DNA from: Mermis nigrescens
Lineage: Eukaryota > Nematoda > Enoplea > Mermithida > Mermithidae
Direction of reading: 5' to 3'
Length of the DNA stretch: 64,000 nt
Assembly (NCBI GenBank): GCA_036768485.1
Contig: JAVLUZ010000273.1
Coordinates: 2,165,669 to 2,229,668 of the forward strand
In this document: in pieces, positions 3,106-51,910 of the stretch
How the letters are laid out: each line of letters begins with the position of its first letter
How positions within the stretch are numbered: the stretch's first letter is position 1
Notes under the pieces: model-generated
Seen by the model: the letters and a program-made list of their open reading frames with translations, nothing else
Told to the model about the DNA's origin: nothing
The model's database searches: none
Position numbers and translations under genes: made by a program

Positions 3106-3175
3106 TGGTGATCCTACTAGGATAGATTCACTGTGAAATAATAACGATATTGAGTATGATACTTTTCCATGCTTG

Positions 3176-3712
3176 TGTAATCGACCTAATCGTTCTCTGA
3201 GCGTCTTTCTTGTGTTGTACGGTAGTCGAAGTGTGATGACAATGTTCTTTTACTAATACACCAATAAGCAATAAGAATACAATAAGTGAGCAATGCGCTG
3301 GCGACGAATGTTTAGTAGCGTAGAGGGAATGACGGGAGGGTAAATTGCAAGCCCCTTTTATTCAAGTTCTAGAGCCTAGTGAGGTGCCTGGCTGGCGCGC
3401 TTGGAGGCGCTTAGCTGTGTTCGTGTTTAGTGTTAAGCTATGCATGTTTTTGCTGGACAATGTGAGTCACTTATTGTAAGATGTACAATAATATTATGTT
3501 AAAAACTAAGTGAGAGATGGAAGCTAAGCAGGTGTTAAAACATTAGGAAAGCTATTCTGGGAGTAAAAAGCGTCTCTGAAAGGCGCCAGCTTTCTGACTA
3601 AAATCTCAATAGTTAGTGAGTTAAAGGCTTTACTGTTTATAGCTAGTTATGTTATAAAGCTTAAAGTGTTATAGTATAGTTAGTGCGTTATAGTTAAAAT
3701 TATTTCATTACA
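3176..3712 (-). repeat. 3' LTR of element A
   Basis: This 537-bp LTR matches 13518-14052 over its whole length. It begins TGTAATCGACC and ends TTTCATTACA on the plus strand. It differs from its partner by scattered substitutions and a small indel near 3480-3500. Confidence 0.9.
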
Positions 3713-3725
3713 TTTCCCCCCTTAG
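3713..3725 (-). other. Polypurine tract of element A
   Basis: On the minus strand, CTAAGGGGGGAAA directly abuts the 3' LTR start TGTAATG, the canonical position for the plus-strand DNA primer. Confidence 0.8.
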
Positions 3726-3845: not shown

Positions 3846-4855
3846 TCACCGAATGCGCCTCTTGTTTTGTATACGATAATCGAGGGCTTTTTGCAACCTG
3901 TGTTCTTTGTGCTCAAGCTCGGCGCGTGGTAGTGGGAAGGCGTGGTGCATTAGGGCGACCCAATGCTTGAAAAACGAGTGATAGTTAGTTGTCCAAACAC
4001 AGTCGTTGCATGCTCGGAATGTGGTGAAGAAAGCCTCGAGCATGTTCCAAAGGAATTTCTCAAAGTTTTCTTCAACGCTCGCCCTAGACGTTGATGGCGC
4101 CTGCTGCATCGGCAGTGTGTCTGGTGTTTTTCGGGGCCATACCCCTTCTGAGGCCACGTGATGTTGACGCCTCGTATTTCCATGGTGTGCTGATCCAGGA
4201 AACAGAATATGTCAAAGGCCAATACTGCCCTAAGACAGCATAATGTTGCCTGGTCACACTCCATTTCACCGAGTATGTTTAGTCGGAAAAATGTGTGGGT
4301 TACTGTGCCTAATGTTGTGTCTGTTAGCCGCTTGATGGTGGGGATCAGATCCCTGTTCTGCTCTGTAAGTGTGTTAATTACAGAGTGTAAGTCGAGTTCA
4401 GGTGCCCAGTTCCTCATGGACAGATCAGTAGCTCCCACTGTGCTCTCGGTTCCAAAACTCAGTGTTAGAAAGCTAGTGTTACGTAAGAGTGCCTGAGTGC
4501 ATTCTGGTACGCCTCCCAAGTCTGTCAAATTAAAAAGAAATACCTTGCCATCAGGGCGTGCAATGGCTAGTTGTTCTGTGCCACTTCCATCAGGTGAGTT
4601 CAGTTTGTGCACAGCCAATGTGTTAGGGACATGTGGATCTACCCCTAACAAGTGGCTGGCTAAGTTCGGGTTGCAGTCATCGGGAATGTGCAGTATGTGG
4701 AAGTCACCAGGGCGCCGATGAAGACGCTTCAGCCAGTTGTTTGCAACTAACATCGGTATTCGTGGCTGCTCTTGGCGCTTCCAGTTTTCGGTTGTCCTTT
4801 CAGAACTGCAGGTTGATCTTGAAACACTGCGGGTTCTGTTCTGTTCGTCTGACAT
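3846..4855 (-). pseudogene. RNase D-like (degenerate DEDD exonuclease fold) ORF, frameshifted
   Basis: This ORF lies between integrase and the 3' LTR of element A. It starts at the ATG at 4855 and stays open for 301 codons. From about 4150 a different frame (3846-4157) looks more protein-like, so a frameshift probably splits it. Residues about 65-215 follow the RNase D/EXD pattern: a LLGVDP segment where exo I (DxE) is expected, then QLAIARPDGKVFLFNLTDLG matching the strand pair after exo I, then SFGTES where exo II is expected, and QATLCCLRAVLAFDIF in the place of the exo III YxxxD helix. The usual catalytic acids are not at the aligned positions (DPH for DxE; LCCLR for YxxxD), so a binding or inactive role is likelier than nuclease activity. 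This is a by-eye fold assignment without a profile search. The downstream frame is helical and aromatic-rich and not recognised. Confidence 0.45.
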
Positions 4856-5693: not shown

Positions 5694-7781
5694 CTATTGC
5701 TTCTTATTGCGTAGGTTATAAGTGTGAGGCAAAGTTGTGTGCTTTTCATGATCTCCTTCCCCTCCTCCCAGTGGTCGTTCGATTTTAGGAATAGTCAAAT
5801 CTTTTTGTCCCTCCTTATCGTTCAAGTCATTTACCCTAGTTTTATACAGCTTAGTCCGATTAAAGTGTACAGTTCCAAGTTCCTTTTTTCCATTTAGTGA
5901 TTCAAAAACGAGAGTGGGTGTTCTAATGGATTTTATTCGATAAGGTCCATTCCATTGGTGCATAAATTTATGAGTTTTTCCCTGAGGAGTGCTAGGATTA
6001 AAAATCATGACAAGATCACCAATTTTGTAATTAGGAAGTTTCACTTTTCTATCATAGTAAGTCTTTTGACTTGTTTGTGCCTGACGAATGTTTTCACGTG
6101 CTAAAGACCATGCTTGTGTTAGGTGGTGCTTAAAGTCAATCAAATAGTCATCTAAGTCAATAATGTATCGTGATTTAGTGAAGTTGAGAGCAGTGTCAAT
6201 CGGGAGTCTTGGTGCCCTACCATACAACAGTTCAAAAGAACTGATTTTAGTGCTTGTCTGATACGTTGAGTTATGCAAAAGTGACGAAAGGTAAGACATC
6301 ATCCCAATCATGCTGATTTTGGCTTACGTACATTGATAACATGTTTGCAAGTGTGTGGTTGAATTTTTCGACTAGACCATCTGTCTGTGGATGATATGGA
6401 GTAGTGTTAATCTTCCGTGTGTCACAGAGTTTACAAATTTCGGCTACCAAGTTAGACATGTAGTTCGTTCCCCTGTCAGAAAGTAGCTGTTTAGGTGCAG
6501 AATGTTGGCATAAAATACCTTCAACAAATTTTAAAGCAGTAGTTTTAGCTGTACAGTCAGAAATAGCGAAACATTCAACCCATTTAGTTAAGTAATCAGT
6601 AAATACAATTATATACTTTTTCCCATTTTGTGAAAGTGGGAGTGGTCCCAAAATATCAGTGGCTACGCGGTCAAATGGACCTTCCACGGGTAGAGGGCAG
6701 AGGGCTGCGCGTGTTTTCTGTATGGGTGATTTTCGTGTTGCGCAACCTAAACATTCAGTGCAGTGTCTCTTTATGTCATGTATCATGCCTTCCCAGAAGT
6801 ATTTTTCGCATATGCGTTGATAAGTTTTTTCGAATCCAAAATGTCCAGAAAGGATATCATCATGATATGATTCAAGTATTTCTTCTTTAAGTGAAGTAGG
6901 AATAACAGAGCAAAGGTGATTTTTGGCTTTAGTCTGTTGTCTTTGTAAGCATCTATCGACTAAGCAGTAGAGTTTTGATTTTGAAATAATAATATTTCGA
7001 GAAACTGAGTCATTAGGCAGCTCATTGTTTTCTAAATATTGAATGATGGGTAATAAGTTAGTATCATTTCTCTGCTCATCTACTAGTTTAGTGTTTTCTA
7101 ATTGTATGTGTGCAATAAATAGTCGAGAAACTGCATCAGCGTTTTTGTGCTTAGCTTGTGACTTATAAGTTAATGTGTAGTCAAACTGTTGCATTATGAC
7201 ATGCCATCTTGCGAGGCGACCTGTTAAGTTATTATCCTTTTTAAACAGTCCAATGAGAGGTGCGTGATCAGTTTGAATGTGTGCCTTGTGACCAATAATG
7301 TAAGGATGAAATGTTTTGACAGCCCAAATTACACCTAATGCTTCGCTTTCAGTGGTTGAATAGTTACGTTCTGGTTTTGTAAGAGTTCGGCTAATATAAG
7401 CAATCGGATGTTCTTTTCCCTCAAAAATCTGACTAAGTACAGCTCCTATGCCATAAGATGAAGCGTCAGTTTGAATATAAAAATCTTGTGTAAAGTCTGG
7501 TAGTTTTAGAATAGGTGCAGTTGTAAGCAGAACTTTTAGCTGTTTAAATGCCTCATTACATTCTTTAGTCCAAGCAAATGTCTTATTTTTTTGTAAAAGG
7601 CTGTTAAGAGGTGCCGAATTCTACTACAGTTTGGAATGAAACGACGATAATATGAAACTAATCCGAGAAAAGATCTGAGTTGATCAATATTCGTTGGTGT
7701 TAGTGCTTGTTCAATAGCAAGTACTTTTATCTTATCTGGCTTCAAGCCATCGGCTGTAAGTTCATGTCCTAAAAATTTGAC
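5694..7781 (-). pseudogene. RT end, RNase H and integrase of element A, frame-broken
   Basis: This continues pol after the TGA at 7782. The RT connection region (7536-7745) carries the SFLGLVSYYRRFIP motif. RNase H follows with a shift of frame near 7585 and is recognisable through 7195. Integrase (6271-7194) shows the HHCC zinc-binding region (H..H, then CTECLGC) and the DDE core: ATDILGPL, LLSDRGTNY and the PYHPQTDGLVEKFN block with the catalytic Glu. A further frameshift near 6290 moves the C-terminal domain into 5694-6311, which has the GPYRIKSI segment and ends YNLRNKKQ. These proteins would make and integrate the cDNA. The stop codon and two frameshifts mean this copy cannot make a full Pol. 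Confidence 0.85.
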
Positions 7782-10289
7782 TCAATGTTTGCAAAAATAG
7801 CATTTTTCAAGTCTTAATTTTAGTCCTGCTTGCTTAAGGCGGTCAAAAACTAGTTGTAGATTTTCCATGTGTTTTTCAAAAGTTTCAGAGTAAACAAGGA
7901 CATCATCTAAATAGACTAAGCAAATTTTCCATTGTAGTCCAGATAAAACAGTGTCCATTAGCCTCTGATAAGTGCTAGGTGCATTACAAAGTCCGAAAGG
8001 CAAAACATTAATCTCATATAGTCCGCTGAGAGTTATGAATGCTGTTTTCTCCTTATCAGTAGGTTCTACTGGGATCTGCCAGTAGCCCCAGGCCTGATCC
8101 AGGGTAGAAAAGTATTTAGCCTTACCTATAGTGTCGAGTATATCATCAATTCTAGGTAGAGGGTAAGTGTCCTTTTTCGTAATTGCATTAAGTTTTCTAT
8201 AATCTACACAGAAACGATCAGAACCATCTTTTTTCTTGACTAATACAATAGGGCTAGCCCATGGACTTGTGGAAGGACTAATGATATTAGCTTCTAACAT
8301 TCTGTTCACGTGTGTCAAAATTCGTGCTCTGTCTGCAAAAGGTACTCTATAAGGATAGCTTCTGACTGGAGCATGCCTCTCTGTGTTAATGTGGTGAGTA
8401 GCGAGTGAAGTTTTTCCTAGATCGTGTTCATGCTGTACAAAAATGCTTTCATTTGCCTGTAAAAATCTGATTAAGGCATTTGTTTGTGCATGTGCTAGAT
8501 TAGTGTTGAGTTTCATTTTAGATGCTATCTGCTCATTCATGCTTGCAGTTGCACAGTGTGCTATAGGAGTGCTAGTTGCGGCTACAACCCCTTGAGTGCC
8601 ACTGTGTGTGTGAATAGTGGGTATAGCATAACCTAGCGTCGCATTTTTGAAGAGTTTAACATCAATAGTGAGTGGGTTAAGAATTTGAATCAGTATATGA
8701 TTACACATAGGTCTACCATAACTCGGATATACAGTAATTCCAGTATGCTTAGAAAATAAGGGAAGAGGTTCAAAATTTACATATTGTTCTCTGCTATTTT
8801 TCTCAAGTAATTCTGAATTTACATGACCGAGAATCTCCATCACCAATTGGGCAGGTACAGTTATTGTTTTACACATTGTTATTTGTGCCTTCTTTGGCGT
8901 TTCATCACTTAGCCTACGCACAAAATTTATAAGTTCTCCCCCAAGACCCAGAGTTTTTGACTTAAAGTCAAAGAGTACTGTTCCGTAAAATGCTAAGATA
9001 TCTACTCCAATAATCAATTCAAAAATGCTTTTTCCTAGTATGCAAAACGTGACGTTTTTCTGACTTCCATTTACCACAAGGTTGATGGAAATGGTTTCAA
9101 GGACCGACAAATTATGCCCACCAACGCCCTTGATAATATTGTTCACAGGGTATACATCTGCAGGAGTGATTCCTATTTGAGGTAGTGCTTGTACAGAGAT
9201 GACTGAAACGGATGCTCCGGTATCCACAATTGCTTTTAAAGGGTATCCATTGACGTTTACAATTATAGATGGGCAATCAAAATATAAACTATCAGACTGA
9301 GTTACTAAAACAGCTTTTTGTGGTGAATTTCTTTGAATCGTTAAGAGTTTAGGTTTTATAGGTTCGAGCGAAGCTAAGTCACTACTAAACCTCCCATCAT
9401 GCCATGGTGATACTAAGTCGCTCGGTAAAAATGGAATATTGTGATTATTTATTGTGACAGTGTGATTACCTATGTTCAAAATTACATCATTAAGTAAACA
9501 AAGTGCATCACAACCTAAAATACAGTCAATATTACGTTCAGTCATAACAGGAAGATCAAAAATTAGAAAATTCACTGTTATGTATTGTGCAGCAATTGTG
9601 ACCGTTAGTTTAGTGTGATTAGTGGCCTCTATCTCATGTCCAGTTGAAGTAATGAGTGTATGATTATTTTCAGGTGTCTGAGTAAGTTCAGGAGTGGGCC
9701 CAAAAAGATATTCAAATAAACGCTGACTAATAAGAGATGCTTCGGAACCAGAGTCGAGTAAAGCTGGTATTTTATCGCTAGAAATTCGGATGAGTATTTT
9801 GGGAATGTCAGAAATTGACTCAGTGCTTTGATTTTTACTTGAGCCTTTACGCAGAAGAAGTCCAAAAGTTGTTGATTTTTGTTTTTGTCTTCTATTTGTA
9901 GTTTGTGACAAAATACCTTCCCTTGGTACTCCTGCTGTACTAATCGTTCCTAAGCTCGATAGTTCTACGCCTACTTCATTTACCATGCGTTGAAAAGTCA
10001 CTCTCTGAGATCTGTTCCGCCAGTAAACTTTAAATTTTAAGTACCCTATGTACATAATAGCTATGATCACTAGTGTGATAATAAGTGTCACAAAGAGATT
10101 TATTAGTACTTGATATATACTACTTAGTAAATGACTGAAAGTACTTGATGTGCCCAAAGCAGTTTTGTCAATTAAGTGTTCAAATTTTTGCTGACTATGA
10201 TCGAGTACGTTGTTAAATGCAGTTCCAGTTCCTGTGAGAATTTGGTAAATTAACTGAGGATTTTCAGATAATTGAGAAGTATATTTCAT
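7782..10289 (-). CDS. Envelope C-terminal anchor, two retropepsin-like domains and RT of element A
   Basis: An 835-codon frame. Residues 1-60 are helical and continue the envelope-like stem. Residues 61-84 form a strong transmembrane segment followed by a basic cytoplasmic stretch. Two aspartic protease-like modules follow: the first has D179-S-G-S with ILGCD at 257-261, the second has D356-T-G-A with IIGVD at 426-430. RT begins near residue 650 (SPWASPIVLVKKKDGS, then YFSTLDQAWGYWQI) and carries the YLDD catalytic box near residue 800. The frame ends at a TGA within KCYFCKH, after which RT sequence continues in frame, so that stop is probably a decayed sense codon. The M at 10289 is only a nominal start; the frame is open upstream into the envelope region. 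Fusion of an envelope anchor to the protease end of Pol is highly unusual for Ty3/gypsy. Confidence 0.85.
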   Translation of the reverse strand: MKYTSQLSENPQLIYQILTGTGTAFNNVLDHSQQKFEHLIDKTALGTSSTFSHLLSSIYQVLINLFVTLIITLVIIAIMYIGYLKFKVYWRNRSQRVTFQRMVNEVGVELSSLGTISTAGVPREGILSQTTNRRQKQKSTTFGLLLRKGSSKNQSTESISDIPKILIRISSDKIPALLDSGSEASLISQRLFEYLFGPTPELTQTPENNHTLITSTGHEIEATNHTKLTVTIAAQYITVNFLIFDLPVMTERNIDCILGCDALCLLNDVILNIGNHTVTINNHNIPFLPSDLVSPWHDGRFSSDLASLEPIKPKLLTIQRNSPQKAVLVTQSDSLYFDCPSIIVNVNGYPLKAIVDTGASVSVISVQALPQIGITPADVYPVNNIIKGVGGHNLSVLETISINLVVNGSQKNVTFCILGKSIFELIIGVDILAFYGTVLFDFKSKTLGLGGELINFVRRLSDETPKKAQITMCKTITVPAQLVMEILGHVNSELLEKNSREQYVNFEPLPLFSKHTGITVYPSYGRPMCNHILIQILNPLTIDVKLFKNATLGYAIPTIHTHSGTQGVVAATSTPIAHCATASMNEQIASKMKLNTNLAHAQTNALIRFLQANESIFVQHEHDLGKTSLATHHINTERHAPVRSYPYRVPFADRARILTHVNRMLEANIISPSTSPWASPIVLVKKKDGSDRFCVDYRKLNAITKKDTYPLPRIDDILDTIGKAKYFSTLDQAWGYWQIPVEPTDKEKTAFITLSGLYEINVLPFGLCNAPSTYQRLMDTVLSGLQWKICLVYLDDVLVYSETFEKHMENLQLVFDRLKQAGLKLRLEKCYFCKH

Positions 10290-10593
10290 GATACGATCTA
10301 TTTTCTGCTCTAATTCATGTGAGGTCCAAATATCTTTAAAACTGCTGATAGTGTCATGAAATAGTGTCGGAGAATCAAAAGTGAATGGGGTCCAGTTTCC
10401 ACTCCAAACAAGCTGAATTGGGGTTTGTGCAACGTGTGTGGCTCCGTTAGGCGAAAGAAAAAAATTGGTTTTCTTTATAAATGCTCGGTATTATTTTATC
10501 ACATGAAGTTCTGTGAGAAAACATAGTCAAATCAGTGCCTCCAGGTAAAACAAAAAATTGATGTGCATTAATTTCAACAGGTAAGTTTACATA
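10290..10593 (-). pseudogene. Envelope-like membrane-proximal region, broken by a stop and a frameshift
   Basis: Between the Gag-Env frame and the Env-Pol frame the minus strand keeps coding. The Gag-Env frame ends at TAA (about 10594), yet the following sequence stays protein-like in the same frame to about 10475. Near a run of T residues there it moves to the frame that feeds the 7782-10289 ORF. This suggests that Gag, Env and Pol were once one continuous polyprotein frame, or one with a recoding site; the present breaks look mutational. It has Trp- and Phe-rich beta-type segments as expected for a fusogen ectodomain. Confidence 0.5.
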
Positions 10594-13359
10594 TTATGTG
10601 TCTCGTACTTTATGGTTCCAATAAATTTTGCTTGTGTTAACTCGATGACATTGCCACACCATAAGTACATCTCCAGCAAAGACAGCATGAATATCACTAC
10701 GCCTAAGTAAGATTCTAGCTCCTGCAGTCGTGTCAATCTGTAAAAGTTGCTTTATTGTGTCTAGTTGGCGCTGTGCAGATCTACAGAGTTCTAGCCATAC
10801 ATTTTTAAAACTTTCTTGCTCAATTTGTAAAATGCGCTGTTCTAAGTATTGCAATTTAGCATTTTCTGGATCAGTTATTTGTGCTACAGTCGAAATAGTA
10901 GTGTTTTGAACTTTTGGATGTGATTTTTCATACTGTTGTCGCAAAAAGAAACTATCTCTTCCCATGATAATTTTTATTAAAACGCCTTGAAGAGTGTCAT
11001 AAGTGCTAATTAGTCCACAGTTACTGCTTACTTTAGTCAGTGTAAAGCCGCTTTGTAGTTCCTTAACTATGACAAACGGAAAATTCACATCTACAGCAAA
11101 AGTTCCTAGCTTATGATACTTACAAAAAGATTTCAGTGGATAAGGGTTCCAAATTACAATAGAGTTATCAGTTACGCATTTACCATGTTGAGCATGACAT
11201 CCTCCTAAGTCACATAAGTCAGAGCTGAGTGTAGTTCCGTCAGTGGTCCCTACATGACATACTTCAATGAAAAAATTTATCGCAGTTTTACACAAGTCGC
11301 GGCAACACCACGAAAATTCTACAGTAAGATTATTAGCAGTAGTCCAGAGTCCATGATGCATATCGTGAAGAGTTTCACTTACCCAAGTTTTAGTTTTCCA
11401 TGCTTCAGAGCAAATAGTGGCAGTAACAGCTTTCATAGAGCTTCCATCATATACTATTCCCTTGCTTCCGAGAAAACCAGTGTTTGTACATATAGCTCTA
11501 TTATGTATATAACATTTTATAGCTTCAGTTGTGTAAGGTGCATCATTAGGTACCCATATATCGACTTTCATGTTATAGGGAGTCGATCTGAGAAGTGGGG
11601 GTACACACTCCACCGCTTTAGAGACTGCTAAGGTATATCCGCCCTGTAGCTTACCACAAAAGTTATAAGTGCGTACATTAGGTGCTGTGTGACATAGTGC
11701 TACTGTCATCAAAACTGTCAAAAAGCAAAGTGATGTCAGAAAAGTATTGTGCAGTGTCTTTTGATTAAGGGATTTACCATGAACGCAAATAAAACTGTCA
11801 TTTTTCATCTCTTTTTCAGCTGCAGCTTCAAGTTTTGGTGACCTAGGCGCGTTCATGACCAGAAGGCGCTCAGACTGTCCCTTATTGCAGTTTTCATCAA
11901 AATCGTTTATGACTGTGACCAAATCGTCACCACCTACCCCTCCTAGGTCAACGGGCACATTTTTTGCCTCCTGCCTTTCCGAAAAGGGGATTGGTGCAGT
12001 CATTTCTCGGGCTAGGTATTTGTGCTCCAAATCCTTACTTTTCAATTGCCCTTCCAAAACTAGACAGTTCACACTATTAAATTCAAAGTTATTTCCGGAA
12101 TCATTAAAATTATACGGTTCTGGACACGTTTCAAACAAACAGAAAGGGTTGTCAACTATTTTAGAATTAGCTGAGTTCTGTTCAGTGTCATCCGCAGGGT
12201 CCACTCCTCCACTTACTGCTAGTACATTACGTTGCTGTGGGCGTACTATGGCTGGGCTAAATGCATTCGTTTTATATCGCACTGGTCCTGCGCTTGCCCC
12301 TGTTCTTCCACTAGACTCATAATTATTATTATTATTGCTCGATTCATTAGTGTTACGATTATTCACGTTCTGATTACATTTAATGGCATGATGGCCAAGT
12401 TTGCCACATTTCCAACAGCAACCCTTTCCTTGGTCACTCCAAGGGGCACCATCCCATTTCCAGGGCCCTTGGTTGCGGTCTGGTTGCCCGTATGGATGCC
12501 AATGATTTCGCTGTGGCTGTTGGATACTTAAATTAGCTATCTGTTGTGATAAGTTATTCATCGTGTCTGTTAAAAGGCTCAGTTCCGGTACAGAGCGCTT
12601 AGCGCTCACATTAGTTGTTGATGTGCTATATGCTTGCTCCTGAATTTCCTGCTGAGTTGCCCTCCTAATTGCTTCCTCTAGATTTTTAGGTTCAGTTACG
12701 ATGATAGTGTAGCGTTTTATCTCAGGTCTTAAACCTCTCAAAAAAGCACCTTTTGCGACAGTTTCACATTGTTCAGTGTTCAAAGAACGATAAGCAGCCT
12801 TAACTAAATTTCGGATATCTACAGCGAATTCTGAAACAGTTTCAGTGGCTCCTTGAGTTCTGTGTACAAGTTGCATTTCCTTAAGCGCGGAGTCTCTACC
12901 TACTGGAAATTCGTTTTTTAGTTCAGTTATCCAGTTTTGATATGTTAAAGGATTATTCAAATTTTCCTGCTCACGACGATTAAAGAAACTAAGTGCTAGT
13001 CCTCTTAAAAATGTAGGTAAAAGTGAGATTTTACACAGTTCATTTAAATTATGTGCATTAGCGAATCGATTAAAAAGTAAAAGCCAATCAGAAATATTTT
13101 CGTTAGAATTTCCAAAGAAAAGAGGTGGCTGTGTTTGAGTTAATAAAAGAGGCGAGGTGTTCTGAACTGCATTAACAACGTGATCTAAGGTTCTCCTAGT
13201 AATTTCTTCAGCTCCATTCGTGAAAAGATCTTGTAGTTCTTGCAAATCCACTGTCGTCATTTTATTACTTAAATTTTTGGTAGCAGATCTAGTTATATAC
13301 AACCTAGGTGCAGGCAATTGAGTAATTCGCTTAGGTGGCAGTTTAGAATAATAAAACAA
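10594..13359 (-). CDS. Gag fused to envelope-like glycoprotein (element A)
   Basis: A 921-codon frame. Residues about 45-280 resemble a retrotransposon capsid/Gag (PPLFFGNSNENISDWLLLF, later FLRGLRPEIKRY). A CCHC knuckle CWKCGKLGHHAIKC sits near residue 316. After an acidic linker, a hydrophobic segment near 538-556 (SLCFLTVLMTVALC) acts like an internal signal peptide. It is followed by a cysteine-rich ectodomain (residues 560-920) with many paired Cys and several N-x-S/T sites. Residues about 790-900 contain a long heptad helix followed by a Cys-containing strand region, the arrangement of class III fusion proteins such as the gB-like glycoproteins of chuviruses and herpesviruses; that assignment is by pattern only. 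The anchor is encoded at the start of the next ORF. The ATG at 13260 is an alternative start. Confidence 0.75.
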   Translation of the reverse strand: MFYYSKLPPKRITQLPAPRLYITRSATKNLSNKMTTVDLQELQDLFTNGAEEITRRTLDHVVNAVQNTSPLLLTQTQPPLFFGNSNENISDWLLLFNRFANAHNLNELCKISLLPTFLRGLALSFFNRREQENLNNPLTYQNWITELKNEFPVGRDSALKEMQLVHRTQGATETVSEFAVDIRNLVKAAYRSLNTEQCETVAKGAFLRGLRPEIKRYTIIVTEPKNLEEAIRRATQQEIQEQAYSTSTTNVSAKRSVPELSLLTDTMNNLSQQIANLSIQQPQRNHWHPYGQPDRNQGPWKWDGAPWSDQGKGCCWKCGKLGHHAIKCNQNVNNRNTNESSNNNNNYESSGRTGASAGPVRYKTNAFSPAIVRPQQRNVLAVSGGVDPADDTEQNSANSKIVDNPFCLFETCPEPYNFNDSGNNFEFNSVNCLVLEGQLKSKDLEHKYLAREMTAPIPFSERQEAKNVPVDLGGVGGDDLVTVINDFDENCNKGQSERLLVMNAPRSPKLEAAAEKEMKNDSFICVHGKSLNQKTLHNTFLTSLCFLTVLMTVALCHTAPNVRTYNFCGKLQGGYTLAVSKAVECVPPLLRSTPYNMKVDIWVPNDAPYTTEAIKCYIHNRAICTNTGFLGSKGIVYDGSSMKAVTATICSEAWKTKTWVSETLHDMHHGLWTTANNLTVEFSWCCRDLCKTAINFFIEVCHVGTTDGTTLSSDLCDLGGCHAQHGKCVTDNSIVIWNPYPLKSFCKYHKLGTFAVDVNFPFVIVKELQSGFTLTKVSSNCGLISTYDTLQGVLIKIIMGRDSFFLRQQYEKSHPKVQNTTISTVAQITDPENAKLQYLEQRILQIEQESFKNVWLELCRSAQRQLDTIKQLLQIDTTAGARILLRRSDIHAVFAGDVLMVWQCHRVNTSKIYWNHKVRDT

Positions 13360-13498: not shown

Positions 13499-13516
13499 TC
13501 TCCATTGCGGCCTCCA
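13499..13516 (-). other. Primer-binding site of element A
   Basis: On the minus strand the 5' LTR end GATTACA is followed, after one T, by TGGAGGCCGCAATGGAGA. TGG is the complement of the tRNA CCA tail. The implied acceptor end (GGCCT before CCA) resembles tRNA-Thr, but I cannot confirm the primer. Confidence 0.6.
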
Positions 13517-13517
13517 A

Positions 13518-14052
13518 TGTAATCGACCTAATCGTTCTCTGAGCGTCTTTCTTGTGTTGTACGGTAGTCGAAGTGTGATGACAATGTTCTTTTACTAATA
13601 CACCAATGAGCAATAAGAATACAATAAGTGAGCAATGCGCTGGCGACGAATGTTTAGTAGCGTAGAGGGAATGACGGGAGGGTATAGTGCAAGCCCCTTT
13701 TATTCAAGTTCTAGAGCCTAGTGAGGTGCCTGGCTGGCGCGCTTGGAGGCGCTTAGCTGTGTTCGTGTTTAGTGTTAAGCTATGCATGTTTTTGCTGGAC
13801 AATGTGAGTCACTTATTGTAAGAGGTACAATAAAATTAAAAAAAACTAAGTGAGAGATGGAAGCTAAGCAGGTGTTAAAACATTAGGAGAGCTATTCTGG
13901 GAGTAAAAAGCGTCTCTGAAAGGCGCCAGCTTTCTGACTAAAATCTCAATAGTTAGTGAGTTAAAGGCTTTACTGTTTATAGCTAGTTATGTTACAAAGC
14001 TTAAAGTGTTATAGTATAGTTAGTGCGTTATAGTTAAAATTATTTCATTACA
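13518..14052 (-). repeat. 5' LTR of element A
   Basis: This 535-bp LTR is the partner of 3176-3712. It is followed at 14053 by CTTG, matching the CTTG before 3176, a 4-bp target duplication typical of Ty3/gypsy integration. Confidence 0.9.
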
Positions 14053-14114
14053 CTTGTTATGTGTTCCCAGTTTATTGCATGTGTGTGGGTGTCCAGCTGC
14101 ATAATACCTTCATT

Positions 14115-15468: not shown

Positions 15469-15724
15469 CATACGTCGGCAGCAAGAAAATTCTGGGGGGT
15501 GCAAGATTTTTTTGAAGGTCGAAAAATGGCCTTAAAAATGGTGGTATGGCGATAAAAACACCATTTTTCGACGTTTCTCATCAAGCACTATCCATTGGCA
15601 TCAAAAAATTGCGAAAAAAGAAAAAATTTTCAAAAAATTGAATTCTGGGGGGGTATTTTGATTTCTGGGGGTATTTTGGTTTCTGGGGGGTGCATACCCC
15701 CCAAACCCCCACGCCCAGAGTGTG
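15469..15724 (+). mobile_element. hAT-type MITE, copy 2
   Basis: Starts CATACGTCGGCAGC and ends CGCCCAGAGTGTG. Perfect 8-bp duplications GTAATGAC lie at 15461-15468 and 15725-15732. It lies 140 bp from copy 3 in the same orientation. Confidence 0.85.
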
Positions 15725-24606: not shown

Positions 24607-26020
24607 TCAAATGAACCACTTTAATCTTTCTACGACCCCTGAATCTTTTACAATAGCATTAACTCCTCTAATGGTCTGAATTTCAAAGGGTCCCAACCAA
24701 CGTTTCTGAAATTTGCTGCTAAACTGAGGATTTTTATACAAAACAAGCTGTTTAGCTTTAAAGAGGTTGTACAATAGCTTGTACCTGGTTTCTGCGGTCA
24801 TACTGGGCTTGTTGACGCTCTTGAGCCCCGTTTAACTGCTTCAGCAGCAAACCGTTGAGCAATTTTCAGGTTAGCATGGATTTTGCGGATAGTGGGCACT
24901 GAAGGCGGTACTTTGTTGCCATCTGCTCCTGCTTCCAAAGCCTGTTCGATAGGTAGCTTAGCTTGTTGTCCATAGACCAGGAAGAAGGGCAAAATCCGAT
25001 GCTCTCATGGCGAGCAATGTTATAGGCGAAGGTTACTGTGGGAGTCGTTGATCCCAATCATTTTCTTCTTGCTGTATTGTCGTAGCAAGCATAGTTCCAA
25101 GAGTTTGGTTGAATCGTTCAACCAAGCCATTAGTTTGTGGACAATACACCGTGGATGTAATGTGACAAACCTCAAAAAGTTTGCAAACCTCCTGGAATGT
25201 GACGGTTGAAAAGCCGGCTCCCCTATCCGATTGCTACAACTTTTGGGGCTCCAAAACGAAGGATAATTTGGTTGACAAAATGTTCTGCAATTGTGGTAGC
25301 TTGTACATCTGGGACGGCAATGGTTTTGGCCCATTTGCTTAACCTATCAATAAAAACTAATATATTAGTTTTCCCCCAGATTGCAGGTAGTGGTCCCATA
25401 GTGTCAATGACCCAGGACTCCATCGCTGCGGTCACAGGAATGGGCTTCATGGGTTGCACCTTTAGCCGTTGATTCAAAGGTCAATGACGTTGGCATTCCA
25501 GGCATTCTCGGCAATGCTTCCAAATATCAGAACGCATTCCAGGCCAGAAGAACCTATCTTTGGCTATCTGAAAAGTTCTATCAAAAGCTAGATGCCCAGA
25601 AATAGTGTCATCATGCAGGGCTTCCAAAAGGGTAGGGACCATTCTCCTAGGAATAGCCAAAATTGGATTTAAATTCAGTTTTTGACTGATATTTCAAAAC
25701 TCCTTGATCCTAAATAAAATCATTGCTAGCATTCCACTGTTCTAGTGAAATTCTTAAAGGCATCCGTCAATTTTGCAAAAGTCTATAAATTTATCCAAGG
25801 AAAATATCTTTCCGTTGCATGATCTCAAAATTTTGAGGTAATTCAATTGCACAAATATCAAAATTATTAGTTTCTTACAAACTTTTCACAGGCAAACGGG
25901 ACAAAGCAACTGCATTCCCATACTCTTTTCCTTTGCAGTACTTGATGTCACAATCATATTCTTGTAAGGACAAGACCCAATGGACTAATCTTGAAGGAAA
26001 AGCATCATGAATTTTCAAGA
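24607..26020 (-). pseudogene. Relic D: decayed gypsy RNase H end and integrase
   Basis: Minus-strand remnants in several frames. 25875-26015 encodes the RNase H tether (WVLSLQEYDCDIKYCKGKEYGNA). 25223-25477 encodes the integrase core start (WVIDTMGPLPAIWGKTNILV). 25020-25334 covers the middle with the catalytic Glu block diverged. 24607-24992 covers the C-terminal part (LVYGQQAKLPIEQALE, then WLGPFEIQTIRGV). Stops and frameshifts separate these. It ends abruptly at about 26021, where it meets element C head to head, so its RT and upstream parts are lost. Confidence 0.7.
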
Positions 26021-26022
26021 GC

Positions 26023-29000
26023 TTGCAAAAAATCATTAATGAAATGCTTGCTGACAAAATTATTCGGCCTACAACCAGTCCATGGGCAAGTCCATTGTTT
26101 CTCATAGGAAAAAAGGACGGTTCCCTAAGACCTGTTGTCGATTATTGCCGTTTAAATGACGTAACTAAAACGCAAGTATATCCTCTTCCTCAACTCGACA
26201 ATTATTTCGATACCTTAGGCTCTGCTGCATATTTTAGCACATTAGATCTAAAATCCGGTTATTGGCAAATTCCTCTCAATAAAGAATCTTGCGAAAAAAC
26301 TGCATTTATATGCCCTGTTGGCCATTACAAATTTGAAGTTTTACCTTTTGGTTTAAAAAATGCGCCCGCAGATTTTCAGAGGCTAATGGAGCTTGTGCTC
26401 GCAGGTCTCAACTGGAAATCTTGCCTTGTTTATATCGATGATATAATCATTTTTTTGCGCACATTCAAAGAACATTTAAAAGATCTTGAAAATGTTTTCA
26501 TTGCACTTCAAAACGCCAACTTACGGGTTAAACCTGATAAATGCCATCTTGCGCATGCCGAAGTAAAATTTCTCGGTCATAGCATAAGTTCGCTGGGCAT
26601 CGTTCCTGACATGTCTAAAGTCACAGATTTAGTCGCATTTCCCGTACCAAAAACCGTTAAATCTTTGCAGAAATTCCTTGGCTTAGTCCAATGGTTTAAG
26701 AAATTTGTTAAAGATCTCGCTAAAATTGCAAAACCGTTATTCCATCTGTCTTCGCAAAGATGTCAAATTTTGCTGGAAGGCCGAACACCAAACTGCTTTT
26801 GAGCTTCTTAAAAAAGCATTTACGTCTCCACCTATTTTGCAATTACCAAAATTTGACGATGAGCACCAATTTATCTTAACAACTGACGCAAGCAACTATG
26901 CGTTAGGTGCTATTTTGACTCAAAAACACTTACCGTCAAAAAGTCGTTTTATTCTTAGCTACGCTAGTTGCGTGCTAAATTCTGCCAAATGTAATTATGC
27001 TACATCGGAGAAGGAAGCGCTAGCAGTGGTGTGGGCCATCAAGCATTATTGACACTATCTATATGGTAAAAAATTCATTGTCGAAACTGATCATCAAGCG
27101 CTAACCTGGCTAGTAAACGTAAAAGACCCATTGAGTCGTTTACGCCATTGGGGTCTCAAATTACAGGAGTACGAATATGATATTGTGTACGTTCCTGGCG
27201 CATATAACTGCACAGCGGATCTTTTATCACGACATCCTAAATACGATCATGCAGAACGCAAATATAAACTTGAGCGCAAAAATATCGTTAATATTGCAAA
27301 TTTAGACTCGGAAGATTCTGAATCCGAGGACAAATCGGTCCCACCTGACCGACTGCGCAATAATACTCCTAATGCACCAAATAATAATCCTAATGCACAA
27401 GCTAATAACCTAATCGCCCATCAATCCAACTAATGCTAAACCTCCTACGTTTTGCGAACGCATTCAACTCACTGATGCAGAAAAAGCTGAAATGCTAACG
27501 CCTGCGCGTTTACTTGCAGAGCAACGCGCCTCAATGACGAACTACATAAAATTTGCATCGTGTTGAATGATTTAACAACAAAAAAATATTGTGACAAATT
27601 TTTTCTCGTAAACAATATTCTTTTTTGTCGTTTTCAACCTAAGCGTTTGCCAACCATTGTGCATCAAATTGTAATACCAAAATCATTGCATTGTTTCGTA
27701 TTAACCAAATTTCATGACTCTATTTTTGGAGCACATTTTTCATCGCGCAAAATTCTACCCGCCATGCAAATGCGTTATTGGTGGCCGCACATGGAAAATG
27801 ATGTGATCGCGTGGTGTAGGAATTGTGATGTGTGCTTACAACGTAAGGTCGCATTAAATTCCACATCTGTTCCTTTGCAACCAATTGAAGTATCCGCGCC
27901 TTTTGAACTCATCGCGTGTGATTGCTTGCATATGCCGCGATCTCCCTCCGGGAATGACCAAATCGTAGTCTTTATGGATTATTTTACCAAATATGTTGAA
28001 GCTTTTGCTGTTTCTGATATAAAAGCAACAACTATTGCAAATCTTTTGCTCAGAGAAATTATCCCACGTTATGGAGTTCCCAAAAAATTTTTGACAGATC
28101 AGGGTTCAAATTTTACATCTGCCCTAATTTCGGAAGTCTGTAAATTACTAAACGTTCAAAAAATCTTTACGACCCCATATCACCCTCAGTGTGATGGTCT
28201 TGTGGAACGTTATAATTGCACCTTAATTGACGGTTTATCTAAATTGAGTGCACAAAATCAGTATGATTGGGAGCAATTTTTGCCATTTGTGTTGTTCGCG
28301 TATCGCGCAACTCCTCAATCGTCAACTAATATCTCTCCTTTTGAAATGCTGTATGGTCGCAAACCTGCATTTCCTCTCGACACTTTACTCATAAATGACT
28401 TCACGATAAATCCGAATTTACAACCTATTGCGGAAAAATATCTCATCGATTTAAAGCTGACCTTGCAAGATCTGCATGAAATCGCGTCTAAAAATTTAGC
28501 TCAAGCGCATAAACAGCAAAAATCGCAATATGACAAATCTGTCACCGCAACCAATTTTTCTGTTTTGGATATCGTCTATCTTAATAATACATCGGTAATT
28601 CAACCTGAAATCGGCAAATTATCACCTAAACGTGTCGGTCCTTATCGAATTATTGCTTTACCTACACCGGAAACTGCAAAAATCGCTTATGTCTATAATC
28701 CGCTAATTATGCATCATGTTCATCGGAATAGACTTCTACCTGAGCCCAAACTACCATACTCGGATCTAATTGCCGAGAAGCACGCATATGTTCCTGGCGA
28801 TTTTGTTTTGGTAAAATTACCACATTGCCCTCTCGCCCCGGCTGTAGTAATAAGTTTTTTGGACTTACCGGGCAGGGAGCAAAAAGCAAGGGACTGCGCG
28901 CCAGTATGTTTGTTAAATGGCTCTAAAACTGCACATGCAGTACCATTATCTGACGTTTTCCCTTTTGCAGACCCATGGCTGACAAAGGTGCCCCTTGCAA

Positions 29001-29065
29001 AGCGGCGCTCTTGGAGTCAGCTGGTCGCCGATTTACACTCAAAGGACGCGACCCAACAACCCTAG
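26023..29065 (+). pseudogene. Pol (RT, RNase H, integrase) of element C, broken
   Basis: RT (26023-26802) shows SPWASPLFLIGKKDGS, STLDLKSGYWQIPL and YIDDIIIF. A frameshift near 26750 leads to RNase H (26705-27052; TTDASNYALGA). A TGA at about 27050 sits where B has CGA in the HYRHYLYG motif. The frame resumes at 27131-27433 and again at 27560-29065. The last part holds the whole integrase: HHCC region with CRNCDVCLQRK, DDE core (DQGSNFTSA, HPQCDGLVERYN) and a C-terminal GPYRII segment. The final 91 nt overlap the next ORF. The truncated start at 26023 is a junction, not a real initiation site. Confidence 0.85.
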
Positions 29066-32000
29066 ATGAGTTTTGCATGGCAATGGTGGAAGTGGCCACC
29101 AAACGGGGGTTGGACTTCCCAGACCCGTTGCCGCAAAATGACAATCAGCGTGTAAATGAATTAGAGGCACTAAGCGCAAAACAAATAAAATACAAGCATA
29201 AAAATGAGGCTAGGTGCCATCGAAAACGCATAAATAATCAGGAACTTTGGTGGGCCAACAAGTTTGGACGTTATCCGCTGGCTACTCTTTGTGTGCCAAA
29301 GCAGAACATACTCCAAACTGTGTTGGTCACCAATGACCAACAATCGTATGAGGCTATGCTGGCTTTGCTCCAGCCGTCAAACTTGATAAATGGCACATTG
29401 TATCTAGGCTACGATTCTGAGTTTGTAAATGACAGAAAAGCATTTAACATTATACGAACTGGGAAGAGCGTTACAAGCAATTTTGTCCCACGTACCCGGA
29501 CACAAACGGCCCATTTGTCTGTTACATTATGCTGGCCAGCGCATACGGCCATGTGTTTTGCTGGGACATGTCTTGTTTTCCCAAGCCTCCTTTTGGGTTG
29601 CACCAAATGCTAGCAACGTCTCTTACGGACGTACGGCTAGTGTGCCATGACCCAATGCAAGATAAAATTGCGTATTTTCATGTTTTTGGACCCACGTTTG
29701 AAGAAATTTTGGCAATTCCTGATGCCAAAATTCGCCGTAATATGCACTGGAAAAATCCTTTTTCGGCGATCTTTATTAACATACTTAATAACGCAAACAC
29801 GTTCACTCGCCACCAACATATCAAAGCTTTCTCGCATAAGCTGAAGCAATTGGCAGAGTTCTTCTTCGATATGCTCATCAATGAAGATGACCCTGACAAT
29901 TGGGGTCAGGCGTGGAGCTTACCACTCACACGCAACATGCAAGTCTATATGGCTTTGGATGCGTTAATCACCATCGATGTATTCATATTGATGGAAGTAT
30001 GCTCGCAAAATAACCGAATTACGGATGATAAAAAACCGTTGCCTTTTTATTTTAAAGACGACAAAAAACACATTAAAAAAGGCGGAACTAAAAAGAAAGT
30101 GTGATGTCCGCTGTCTCATACGCCATCGCAAGGCCAGTCGACCAGCTCGGCGGCTGAGACCACCGTAAACTCGGACGGCGAAGAAGTTGTAACGCCTTTA
30201 GACTTCTATATGCCGCGTCCGGAGCCCAAAGCGGCCATAGCCGCGGCTACTGTGGTTGCTCACGATGGCTAACACGCCGTCGCATGACAATGTTTGGGAA
30301 AACCCGTACCTAATGGTACGACAGTTGCAGTACAATGCCAACGTTCAGTTGGGCCCGTGCGTAACAACTGTTCCCGAAACAGCCACTATTGTCACTTCTA
30401 CGCCGGCCACTGCGACTCTTTTGCAAGCCGAGCCGCAATTCGAAACTCCGATGGTCGGAATTGAACCATCCGGGACCACTGAGCAGGCAAACTTATTGCC
30501 CTCACGCCTTGTAATTGCATTACTGGAATCTGAAACCGCAATGCAAGCGAATTTATTGCCTTCCAAAACTGGACGTATTTTATACTGCTCCAGGGGAGCC
30601 ATCCTCGCAACGCAAGCAATTGCTTCGCAATTGCTCACAACTCTGTCGCACGTGTTGATGGATGCCTTGCAGTTGCTTCCGTTACCAATGCCGCAGTCGG
30701 ATTGGGAAGAACAACACGCAGGGCCGGATATCATAATGACCAAAATTTTGAGTTTGCCTCCGCGAACGCAACCTTACGCTGCCACCCCAAGAGGTGTCGC
30801 AAGCTGCGTTATCAGTGCAAATTGCGTCACAAAGCGCGCCACCAGTTGCGTCGCAAATTACAGTTGACACTACGGCAGGTATATCAGATACTAACGTGCG
30901 CGTTCAGCCACTGGGTACCCAAAATATACCGCCAAATGCGGATGATACACCACATCCGCATGTAGAAATTGTTCGCCAACACGCATCAGCCAAACAAAAT
31001 GCGCAACAGCGCAATCACTCTCGCTACATGGCACATTTCTTCCAAATAGTTGAAACATTGGCTCGCGATCCTCCATGCTATATTGTCCCTGACGTTTTGC
31101 ACGATCTGTGCACCTACTTAGGTGACAGAGAAGGATCGATCATGTATGATGAACTCGTTAGAGGCTGCGCAAGTGCACCTCAATAAAATTTATGCAATTC
31201 ATTTGCAACGTGCACCCACAGCTGATGCACCCCAGCGCCCCTTGGCCTGGGCAACAGTCGCGCAACCCGCGATAGACGTTGACCGCAGACCACCGCCGCA
31301 TTTCATCTCGCAACTGAGCATGTTCCAACGTCTCTATTATCCGGATGACTATTTTGTGAGAAATTGATTTTTCTTAACCACCGGAATGATGCTTTATGAA
31401 GTTCTGCTAGAATACTTGGTTAGTCACCAGTACCTCAAAACTCCGAGTGTTGTGACCAATGGCCAAGCACGGAACATTCTTCCTGAAGTATTGCCGCACC
31501 GAGTGTGCCCAGCACCGGATCATATGGCACCATTATTGGTCACTATGCGACAAATGATCGATATTTTCGAAAACTTTTGCGAATTCCAAGCTGCATATGA
31601 ATTGGACTATCAGTTCCTACCGATTTTTTCATCCATAGATGTTATGCGAGCAAAAGTGCTTTTGGAATTCTTGGACAGACGTTTCCACTATTTCGCATTC
31701 GCCTATGGCAGTATGGCCATAGCCTGGCGAATGGTTGAACAGCTGCGCCATATGTTGCGTGTGGCTTTTCTCGGCCCGTCATACACGCCGACGCCAGCTG
31801 ATGCTTTTCCGGGATTCCCGGGACTGACTGAACAGAATTGAAGACCAGGCCAAATTGCATCGCACAATTTGAGCCATTTGGCTTCAAACTGATCCAGAAT
31901 TTGCTGTCCCGGTGCAATTTGATCAGTATAAAGGTCGCCAAAAATTGGCCTACTACCTAAAACATAAATTGCAAGCAGACTTAGAAAAAATCCGCAGAGA

Positions 32001-43380: not shown

Positions 43381-44470
43381 TCCTACTCAAGAACCAGCGG
43401 TCGGATCAGGCTCAAATTTTCAAAGAATGTTAAGTATACGTTAGGCATCATATAAACAGAATTTTAGCGCGCAACCTACAGTATAGCAGCGTAAGTTTAC
43501 ACTTTCTCATATAGCACTGTATTTGAAGAACCAGCAGTCGGATTTGGTTGAAAATTTCAGTGTATGTTAGGTATACATTGGGCATCATATGTACGAATTT
43601 TAGCGTGAAACCTACAGTATACCAGCATTAGTTTACACTTTCTCATATAGCACTATATTCCAAAAATCACTAGACGGATCTTATTCAAATTTTCAGGATG
43701 TGATGTATAAATCTTAGCTGTGCTATGTAAAGAAATTTAGCGCGCAGTCTACAGTATACCAGTTTACTTTACACTTTTTTGTATAGCACTATATTCCAAG
43801 AATCACTAGCCGGATCTTGTTCGAATTTTCAGGATATGATGTATATAGGCAAGGCATGCTATGTACAGAATTTTAGCGCGCAGCCTACAGTAAACTAATT
43901 TACTTTACACTTTCTCGCATAGCACTATATTCTAAGAATCATCAGACGGATCTTGTTCAAATTTTCAGGATATGATGTATATAAGCAAGGCATGTTATGT
44001 ACGGAATTTCAACATGCAGCCTAGGGTATACTAATTTACTTTACACTTTCTCGTATAGCACTATATTCCAAGAACTGTTCGCCGGATTTTGTTCAAATTT
44101 TCAGGATATGATATGTAAACCTTAGCTGTGCTATGTGCAAAAGTTTAGCGCGCAGCATACAGTATACCAATTTACTTTACACTTTCTTGTATAGCACTAT
44201 ATTCCGGAAACCGTGAGCCGGATTTTGTTCAAATTTCTAGGTTATGATACATACATACCTTAGCTGTGCTATGTGTAAAATTTTAGCGCGAAACATACAG
44301 TATACTAATTTACTTTACACTTTCTTGCATAGCACTATATTCCAGGAATCGCTAGCCGGATTTTGTTCAAATTTTCAGGATATGATAAATAAACCTTAGC
44401 TGTGCTGTGTAAAAAATTTTAGCGCACAACCTACTGTTTTCTGATTTTTTATTTGCACTGTCTTTACAAT
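43381..44470. repeat. Tandem satellite, about 136-bp period, about seven to eight copies
   Basis: Units contain TATAGCACTATATTCC, a GCCGGAT(T/C)TTGTTCAAATTTTCAGG box, TTAGCGCGCAGCCTACAGTA and TTTACTTTACACTTTCT. CACTATATTC-type boxes lie near 43510, 43650, 43786, 43920, 44060, 44195 and 44333. Similarity is higher in the middle units, as expected of a local array. Confidence 0.8.
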
Positions 44471-50900: not shown

Positions 50901-51910
50901 ATAAAAACATCGATAGTAATGAGAGCGTCCATCGCTAGATAATGCTGCATATCCCGAGTTAACGGTAAACTCCACGCCTGTCCGAAATTTCCAGGCGCGT
51001 TCGGGTCAATATACATGTCGGAAAAGAATTCTGCCAAGCGCTTTAACGAATGCGATTGCGCTTTAATGCGTATACGACGAGTAAATGTTCTCGCCAACGG
51101 CTGAATGTTGATGAAATTTGCAATAAATGGGTCTTTCCAGTGCAGTTTATTGCGAATTTCTGCATCGGGAATTGCAACAATTTCCTCGAATGTTGGCCCG
51201 TAGACATGGAAATACGCAAGTCGATCTTGCGTCGGGTCATAACACACCATATACACGTTAGGTAAGCGTGTTTTGAGCAACTGGTGAAGCCCGAACGGAG
51301 GTTGCGGAAACTTCGCTAAATCCCAACAGAACACATGGCCAGTCGCGCTCGCAACTTGGACGTAGCGTACGAATGGGCCATGGAGGTCCTGGTAAGTGGG
51401 ACATAGTTGCTGAAAACGCAGGTCCCAGGTCTTATAATGCCTGCCTTTTCTATCATTCACAAATTCAGAGTCGTAGCCTAAAAATAAAGTGCCATTCGTC
51501 ATATTCGATGGCTGAATTAACGCCAAAATGGCGCCAAACGACGTCTGGTCGTCGGAGACTAAGACGGTGGGTAAAAGCCTATTCTTTGGTACGCGAGGGG
51601 TTACCAAAGGACTTCTACCAAGCCGATTCTCCCACCAGAGTTGTTGATCATTTATACGCTTTTTGTGATTTGCGATTTTATGTGTTGCTTTGTGCTTTAC
51701 CCATTTTGCGCTAAGTGATTCAGGACCGCCAACACGGCGAGTATCGTGTTGCGGCAGCGGGTTGGGTACGACCAATCCCCGCTCTAAAGCCATACTGGTC
51801 AACGCCGAACGAAACTCATCTAGGGACGCGGGAACACGTCCCTCGAATTTGCATCGGCGACCAGCTGCTTCCAACAATGCCTCCTTGCTGGGGGTACCTT
51901 GAGCAGCCAT
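47945..51910 (-). CDS. ORF2 of element B: DEDDy 3'-5' exonuclease plus unknown domain
   Basis: One frame of about 1,322 codons from the ATG at 51910 to the TGA at 47945, interrupted only by TGA codons (near 48935, near 48870 and at 48557-48559). Residues 140-345 form a DEDDy exonuclease: exo I GYDSEFVND (D147, E149), a GHVFCWDLAKF strand pair, exo II VCYDPTQD (D229), SLKRLAEFF (288-296) and exo III YLAMDALITIDVF (Y324, D328). This order matches RNase D, EXD and Mut-7, which trim RNA or DNA 3' ends with two metal ions. Residues 370-640 are a low-complexity P/A/T/Q linker. Residues about 640-990 form a conserved domain I do not recognise. A coiled/basic Q/R/S-rich region and an acidic DDYEDNEDFEDDD end follow. 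The frame is -1 relative to pol. Expression could be by reinitiation at the overlapping ATG. Confidence 0.75.

Follow-up and report, generated by a model that had tools for sequence, protein, structure and literature searches.

Env between Gag and Pol in a Ty3/Gypsy-Type Element Group of the Nematode Mermis nigrescens: A Candidate Membrane-Threaded Gag-Env-Pol Polyprotein

Introduction

Long terminal repeat (LTR) elements of the Metaviridae, Errantivirus among them, have LTRs, a primer binding site (PBS), a polypurine tract (PPT), a Ty3-type capsid and the order protease (PR), reverse transcriptase (RT), RNase H (RH) and integrase (IN), and some also possess an Env, which the family profile of the International Committee on Taxonomy of Viruses places downstream of integrase (PMC7879559). 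Here, we describe an element of the mermithid nematode Mermis nigrescens that shares these features but has an Env-like block positioned between Gag and protease; in the relatives read, this block shares a frame with both. The element lies in a 64,000-nucleotide stretch of contig JAVLUZ010000273.1 (assembly GCA_036768485.1, positions 2,165,669 to 2,229,668, forward strand), which, at its full length, we call the window.

As far as the available portions of the respective articles go, the nearest single-frame precedent found is that of Atlas virus and its kin (Belpaoviridae, hookworm), in which one stop-free polyprotein of 2828 residues includes a viral fusion protein; its order, however, is Gag-Pol-Env with Env last, the fusion protein is of a class II, phlebovirus-like type, and the pol is of BEL/Pao type (PMC9094657). 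The mosquito Pao elements called Anakin have captured a jingchuvirus glycoprotein, as an LTR element appears to have done here, but they belong to BEL/Pao, and the available sections of that article describe no Env between Gag and Pol in them and, for Roo, Tas and Cer-7, put the Env-like genes after the polyprotein (PMC7642597). Endogenous viral elements (EVEs) derived from Jingchuvirales glycoproteins and found beside Gypsy fragments in insects share both the glycoprotein type and the Gypsy association, but the flanking elements are mostly fragmentary, and the available part of that study describes no internal Env layout (PMC10084718). The Errantivirus Env is likely baculovirus-derived (PMC12440569, available part), in contrast to the class III type encountered here, and plant elements have env-like open reading frames (ORFs) between pol and the 3' LTR (PMC7264820, available part). 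Our search of the open-access literature, with curated repeat libraries outside its scope, found no element in which Env sits between Gag and Pol, and an earlier description may exist. In the flavivirus polyprotein, a cytosolic capsid is followed by an internal signal, a lumenal envelope protein and cytosolic enzymes; this unrelated virus is like our element in proposed topology only.

Results and Discussion

A Common Gag-Env-Pol Reading Frame in Relatives of the Window Element

The window contains a complete LTR element on the minus strand (14052-3176; all its parts given below are on this strand) in the order Gag, Env, two proteases, RT, RNase H, integrase and ORF3. Gag (12376-13260) comprises Ty3_capsid (13065-12604, E 5e-8) and Retrotrans_gag (3e-5) matches and a CCHC knuckle (12417-12376), and is followed by a Gag-Env spacer (11743-12375) that is open and weakly conserved as protein, with conserved nucleotide islands. 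A signal-like hydrophobic segment (11692-11742), a 17-mer of mean hydropathy 2.28 where the values elsewhere upstream are at most 1.28, then leads into a predicted class III type Env ectodomain (10110-11691) and a strong transmembrane (TM) helix as Env anchor (10053-10109), the next 20 residues of which carry a net charge of +5.

These parts are divided over two ORFs, of which the first (13485-10594) spans 963 codons from stop to stop, or 888 from its first ATG (13260), and the second (10490-7782) spans 902 codons and holds the Env stem, the TM helix, two retropepsin domains and RT. The original prediction, made from the letters of the window, had described a frame of 921 codons from Gag into Env, of which the CCHC knuckle, the hydrophobic segment and the Cys-rich block stand but the length does not, as a count of 921 starts upstream of any ATG; it had also correctly read the next ORF as stem and TM anchor followed by protease and RT, and had correctly taken Env to follow pol in known env-bearing gypsy elements. 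Two separate ORFs are, however, not the native state of the element. Env is interrupted between 10611 and 10490 by an in-frame stop (10596-10594) and then a frame change before 10490, and RT-RNase H-integrase is spread over several frames; because Env runs without a stop in the seven relatives read, the split is, on this sequence comparison, damage in the window copy.

As the polyprotein inferred in the original prediction would require, other copies hold Gag-Env-Pol in one frame: in seven diverged copies, a single stop-free frame of 2201-2822 codons runs from parts of Gag through Env, PR, RT, RH and IN (2508 codons in the locus that we label L011, 2201 in L013, 2540 in L031, 2654 in L032, 2709 in L033 and 2493 in L034, while that of L030 measures 2595 inside its locus, the part read, and 2822 in the genome). 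These copies were selected for long frames and have no N within the stretches read, whereas L009 and L010 were left out because their long frames cross 5-kb N gaps; further long frames listed (up to 2930 codons) might cross gaps. In L025, a near-copy of L013, the frame stays open for 1673 codons until a frame change. Domain order was assigned by Pfam for L030-L034, where Env, RT, RNase H and integrase all score above cut-off and the protease matches are partly below it, with a DTGA motif in each, and by tblastn for L011 and L013. The distance from zinc knuckle to protease motif is 779-1201 codons in seven of eight Env-bearing loci (measured to the second protease in L033), compared to 91-259 codons in ten Env-less frames that have both motifs; no zinc knuckle was found in L031 with the motif used.

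The Gag-Env spacer (120-523 codons) and the Env-PR linker (62-271 codons) are both stop-free in all seven copies, with probabilities of containing no stop of 3e-4 to 1e-20 and 1e-2 to 5e-8, respectively. Between 4 and 44 stops would be expected per spacer or linker, and the other two frames of the same stretches contain 2-98. The openness of the spacer is not explained by our having chosen among about 138 places, least of all in L030-L032.

Gene Order across the Genome

We searched the genome assembly (524 Mb, 860 contigs) in several ways. From an RT search, we took 18 ten-kb loci selected for long frames, and three of these carry this Env: L011, whose Gag, Env, protease and RNase H-integrase pieces, where compared, share 60-76% identity with those of the window, and the far more distant L013 and L025 (Env 31%, E 1e-52; RNase H-integrase 48%). 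The Pfam family PF24664, used as a query, scored 68 places among 775 first-look candidates, all 68 above cut-off, and a protein search for Env scored 94 among 1848; merged, the two give 138 places. L030-L034 were picked for long frames from the PF24664 list, and all five show the Gag-Env-Pol layout. Many of the 138 places are fragments or contain stops, and identical-scoring Env pairs with a spacing of 78,440 bases occur on two contigs (C61:46309650/46388090 and C687:316734/395174), suggesting uncollapsed haplotype copies. As some places are duplicates, 138 is not a tally of independent insertions.

The RNase H-integrase search scored 94 rows of 4311 candidates and the Gag search gave 142 rows, and the pairings that follow hold among the matches listed. 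Forty-one Env places have RNase H-integrase within 15 kb: in 40 it lies 3.7-6.5 kb downstream on the same strand, in one it lies upstream, 10.9 kb away and probably belonging to a neighbour, and in none is it on the opposite strand; the other 97 places have no such partner. Gag is found within 8 kb at 55 Env places, in every case on the same strand and upstream, with 83 unpaired, and at 29 places all three occur in order. None of the 94 integrase rows listed has an Env within 6 kb downstream. Conversely, Env is found upstream in 35 of the 50 closest RNase H-integrase rows and in 4 of the 44 others.

Two outcomes had been named in the original prediction as speaking against it, of which an insertion private to the window locus is ruled out by the recurrence of the layout in diverged relatives genome-wide. 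The other, copies that lack Env, is answered in part: 15 of the close rows have no listed Env, and the two of them read (L036 and L037) both have a broken Env in place. Judged by these comparisons, a whole group of elements has Env placed between Gag and Pol, and the arrangement is no local recombinant.

Identity and Constraint of the Env Block

The Cys-rich block matches PF24664 (Monjiviricetes_fusion) with E 6e-8 in the window and 9e-18 in a relative, scoring 31.5 bits in the window and 64 in L011 against a curated cut-off of 27, in alignments that reach at most approximately positions 214-572 of the 653-position profile. Below threshold, the window Env also matches BDV_G and herpes gB, two surface glycoproteins of viruses, and these matches point towards the same class of fusion protein, in which Borna G is likewise counted. 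Herpes gB is called class III in the available part of PMC9094657. Of the searches of the PDB, one was without matches and another, a profile search, had gB as its best hit at E 0.11.

Across nine elements (L013 and L025 being near-copies), 52 columns of Env are invariant and 14 Cys columns are kept in 9/9, in the first two thirds of Env; this conservation excludes a chance origin of the block. Each ectodomain contains 16-17 Cys together with 6-7 glycosylation motifs (three in the shorter piece of the window), and the five translations examined contain neither furin-type sites nor a 2A peptide (NPGP). Between the window and L011, with synonymous sites near saturation, pN/pS is 0.20 in capsid-NC, 0.20 in the ectodomain and 0.19 in RT, compared to 0.72 in the spacer. 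By this measure, Env is constrained as strongly as capsid and RT.

Descent of the Env-Bearing Elements and Spread beyond the Genome

In an unrooted tree of RNase H-integrase with 20 rows, all taken from the loci compared here, a branch with support 97/95, present in 95% of 200 bootstrap trees, sets the nine Env-bearing elements apart from the rest. The tree omits L009, L010, L020, L023 and L026 (no or short RNase H-integrase match) and L001-L008 (no match), and, because it is unrooted, calling the Env-bearing elements a clade presumes a root among the rest. The Env tree agrees near the tips, and its deeper split (77/87) fits but is weak, with long branches. A single capture, or a single ancient presence, with long co-descent thereafter is the simplest reading of these trees. 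LTR identity is 97.7-99.6% in six elements, showing recent movement in several branches; L030, L032 and L033 show no LTR pair within the stretch read.

Outside this genome, a 3.1 kb metagenome contig encodes a 1044-aa protein with Env (32% identical to that of L011), TM, protease and RT in one frame. The contig is filed under a Desulfobacteraceae metagenome-assembled genome and is presumably stray eukaryotic DNA. A 668-aa protein of the nematode Steinernema has PF24664 alone, and a search from the 1044-aa protein returned, besides the query, one Steinernema protein carrying PF24664 and four Gypsy-type proteins whose listed domains do not include that family. Searched against 5.8 billion proteins, the Env1 piece of the window gave no match, while a longer query scored on Env gave one; a scan of viral contigs with four queries yielded no confirmed relative.

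Proposed Membrane Topology and Alternative Explanations

We consider it probable that, in a Ty3/Gypsy lineage, a class III glycoprotein of jingchuvirus/mononegavirus type was taken into the join of Gag and protease, and that Gag-Env-Pol is translated as one polyprotein threaded twice through the membrane. From gene order, the common frame in relatives, Env conservation and the grouping of the Env-bearing elements, all observed directly, we infer the following topology. Gag would be made by the ribosome in the cytosol, after which the internal hydrophobic segment would act as a signal sequence and thread the Env ectodomain into the lumen of the endoplasmic reticulum (ER); the TM anchor would then halt transfer, returning synthesis of protease, RT, RNase H and integrase to the cytosol. 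At the Gag-Env join, cleavage in the lumen would fall to signal peptidase, and on the cytosolic side Gag and Pol would be freed by the viral protease, a scheme much like the one by which the flavivirus C-prM join works. Gag and Pol would thus initially be tethered to the membrane at Env, tying assembly and budding together, and the likely use of the whole would be to infect other cells or hosts. Consistent with this topology, a hydrophobic 17-mer precedes the ectodomain in 8/8 elements (mean hydropathy 1.58-2.84, the highest upstream of Env in each), net charge after the TM helix is positive in 8/8 (+1 to +7), and the charge difference across the TM helix is as expected in seven of the eight.

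A number of observations weigh against this proposal. With regard to topology, the charge across the TM helix is tied in L030, the signal segment of L034 is weaker (1.58) while another upstream stretch in L031 reaches 2.04, and in only five of eight elements is the charge greater before the signal than behind it, with two ties and a reversal in the window. In-frame Met codons occur at most 60 codons upstream of the signal segment in 8/8, making a separate Env-Pol start possible. At the Gag-Env join, the best stretch between the window and L011 has 18/18 synonymous codons identical, compared to 50% overall; such extra conservation, beyond what protein explains, could reflect a splice site. The Gag portion of the frames is also uneven: a Pfam Gag/capsid match is above cut-off only in L034, below it in L031 and L033 and missing in L030 and L032, where Gag rests on tblastn to the window Gag (E 3e-12) and on the zinc knuckle, respectively. 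Moreover, the L011 frame starts at window Gag codon 38, leaving the first 37 codons outside, and the L032 frame begins inside the capsid, so not every frame contains all of Gag. The AlphaFold2 model of Env (pLDDT 31.5) is uninformative.

Errantiviruses make their Env from a spliced RNA, and the genomic RNA here might likewise hold Gag-Env-Pol in one frame while the proteins come mainly from spliced RNAs, either with Env removed as an intron to give Gag-Pol or with Gag removed to give Env-Pol. The extra conservation at the Gag-Env join and the ATG shared by the window and L011, possibly an internal start (it is GTG in L033), would suit this explanation, which we nevertheless regard as unlikely: the weakly constrained spacer and the Env-PR linker are both open in frame in all seven copies read, and sequence that is spliced out or untranslated would not need to be. 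As no stop follows Env in these copies, even an Env RNA would yield Env-Pol.

We judge it improbable, to a somewhat greater degree than splicing, that the block is a membrane-anchored, glycoprotein-like protein that has lost its role as a fusogen and serves intracellular targeting or assembly of Gag-Pol. Its fusion activity is indeed only predicted, the PF24664 profile is covered in part, and the translations tested have no furin-type site; however, the ectodomain is as constrained as the capsid, its invariant and Cys columns are retained, and its sub-threshold matches are to BDV_G and herpes gB. That the block is a recombinant insertion or an assembly join at the window locus, with no meaning for the family, we find barely credible, even though the window copy is broken at Env and captured chuvirus-type glycoproteins are known in LTR elements from the available parts of PMC10084718 and PMC7642597: the order is the same at nearly all paired places, and it is found also where Env is only 31-34% identical to the window Env, as well as in a contig of different origin.

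Structure of the Element and Neighbouring Features

The 5' LTR (13518-14052) starts with TGTAATGA and ends in GATTACA, and the 3' LTR lies at 3176-3712; the pair is 97.95% identical over 537 columns, with TG..CA ends. A 4-bp target-site duplication, CAAG, flanks the element at 14053-14056 (5' side) and 3172-3175 (3' side), also given on the minus strand. A PBS-like stretch, TTGGAGGCCGC (13500-13517), directly follows the 5' LTR, its TTGGAGG being found also at the LTR end of L011, and a PPT, aaggggggaaa, is found at 3713-3723. Between these lie, in addition to Gag and Env, a first retropepsin-like domain with DSG (9441-9788) and a second with DTG (8988-9272), both from Pfam, RT (7791-8240, YLDD at 7913), and RNase H, H2C2 and the integrase core with its tail (5694-7620, in two frames through decay). 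The sequence thus describes a decayed, fairly young Ty3/Gypsy-type copy, with the TG..CA LTRs, 4-bp duplication, PPT, Ty3-type capsid and PR-RT-RH-IN order of the Metaviridae, but neither their Env downstream of integrase nor the separate env ORF after pol of Errantivirus.

Two other assignments were considered. Belpaoviridae (Anakin, Atlas) are ruled out by the Pfam families Ty3_capsid, RT_RNaseH_2, RVP and rve, with no BEL-type family listed among the matches. Troyka, described in the available part of PMC12440569 with CG..CG LTR ends, a 3-bp duplication and no Env, is ruled out by TG..CA, CAAG and the presence of Env.

We note in addition that synonymous conservation at approximately 12021-11875 could be an RNA signal, a splice site or a trace of recombination, and that retropepsin domains are in tandem in the window (9788-8988), in L011 and, by motif, in L033, and single by motif in L013, L030, L031, L032 and L034. 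ORF3 (301 codons, 3950-4855) sits between pol and the 3' LTR; its Pfam search gave nothing below E 0.1. It has a relative in the L011 element (L027 1149-2045; 41% over 238 aa, E 2e-52) and weakly resembles (E 1e-4 and 3e-4) the DNA that follows integrase in the Gypsy loci L016 and L015. In bdelloid LTR elements, Env-like genes are ORF3s after pol, and DEDDy-exonuclease ORF3s also occur (PMC5408684, available part).

Elsewhere in the window, a second Gypsy element (57880-47710, minus strand) has a 1887-codon Gag-Pol frame and an accessory ORF (48935-51931, 998 codons) with a sub-threshold 3'-5' exonuclease match (E 0.13), and what by eye is a decayed relative of it lies on the opposite strand (26011-31841, plus). 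A GGGGGTATTTTGATTTCTGG-type unit recurs, on either strand, in short tandem repeats at 15638, 16034, 17075, 20647, 21056, 21329, 22469, 36237, 36502 and 38883, which are probably pieces of a dispersed repeat, and a tandem array of a 136-base unit (about 7.7 copies) is found at 43388-44434. In the wider genome, a COX1 sequence (L035, G000:C61:36162539-36163888) contains 10 TGA codons and is open when read with the invertebrate mitochondrial code; it lies within a 48.8-Mb contig and is either a recent nuclear copy or a misassembly.

Conclusions

On balance, we lean slightly towards the broader view that these elements represent a deep animal LTR retrovirus lineage, apparently present in more than one organism, with a Gag-Env-Pol polyprotein threaded twice through the membrane and enzymes that would enter particles tethered to Env, a flavivirus-like strategy that would overturn gag-pol-env as a universal order. 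The classical retroviral gag-pol-env order lets Env come from an RNA of its own. An Env kept inside Gag-Pol means that membrane insertion, the stoichiometry of Gag, Env and Pol, and assembly would need another solution. Searches that look for env after pol miss elements with an Env in mid-genome, and the layout described here would widen the range of retrovirus genomes through what may be an old and repeatedly mobile capture of a fusion gene.

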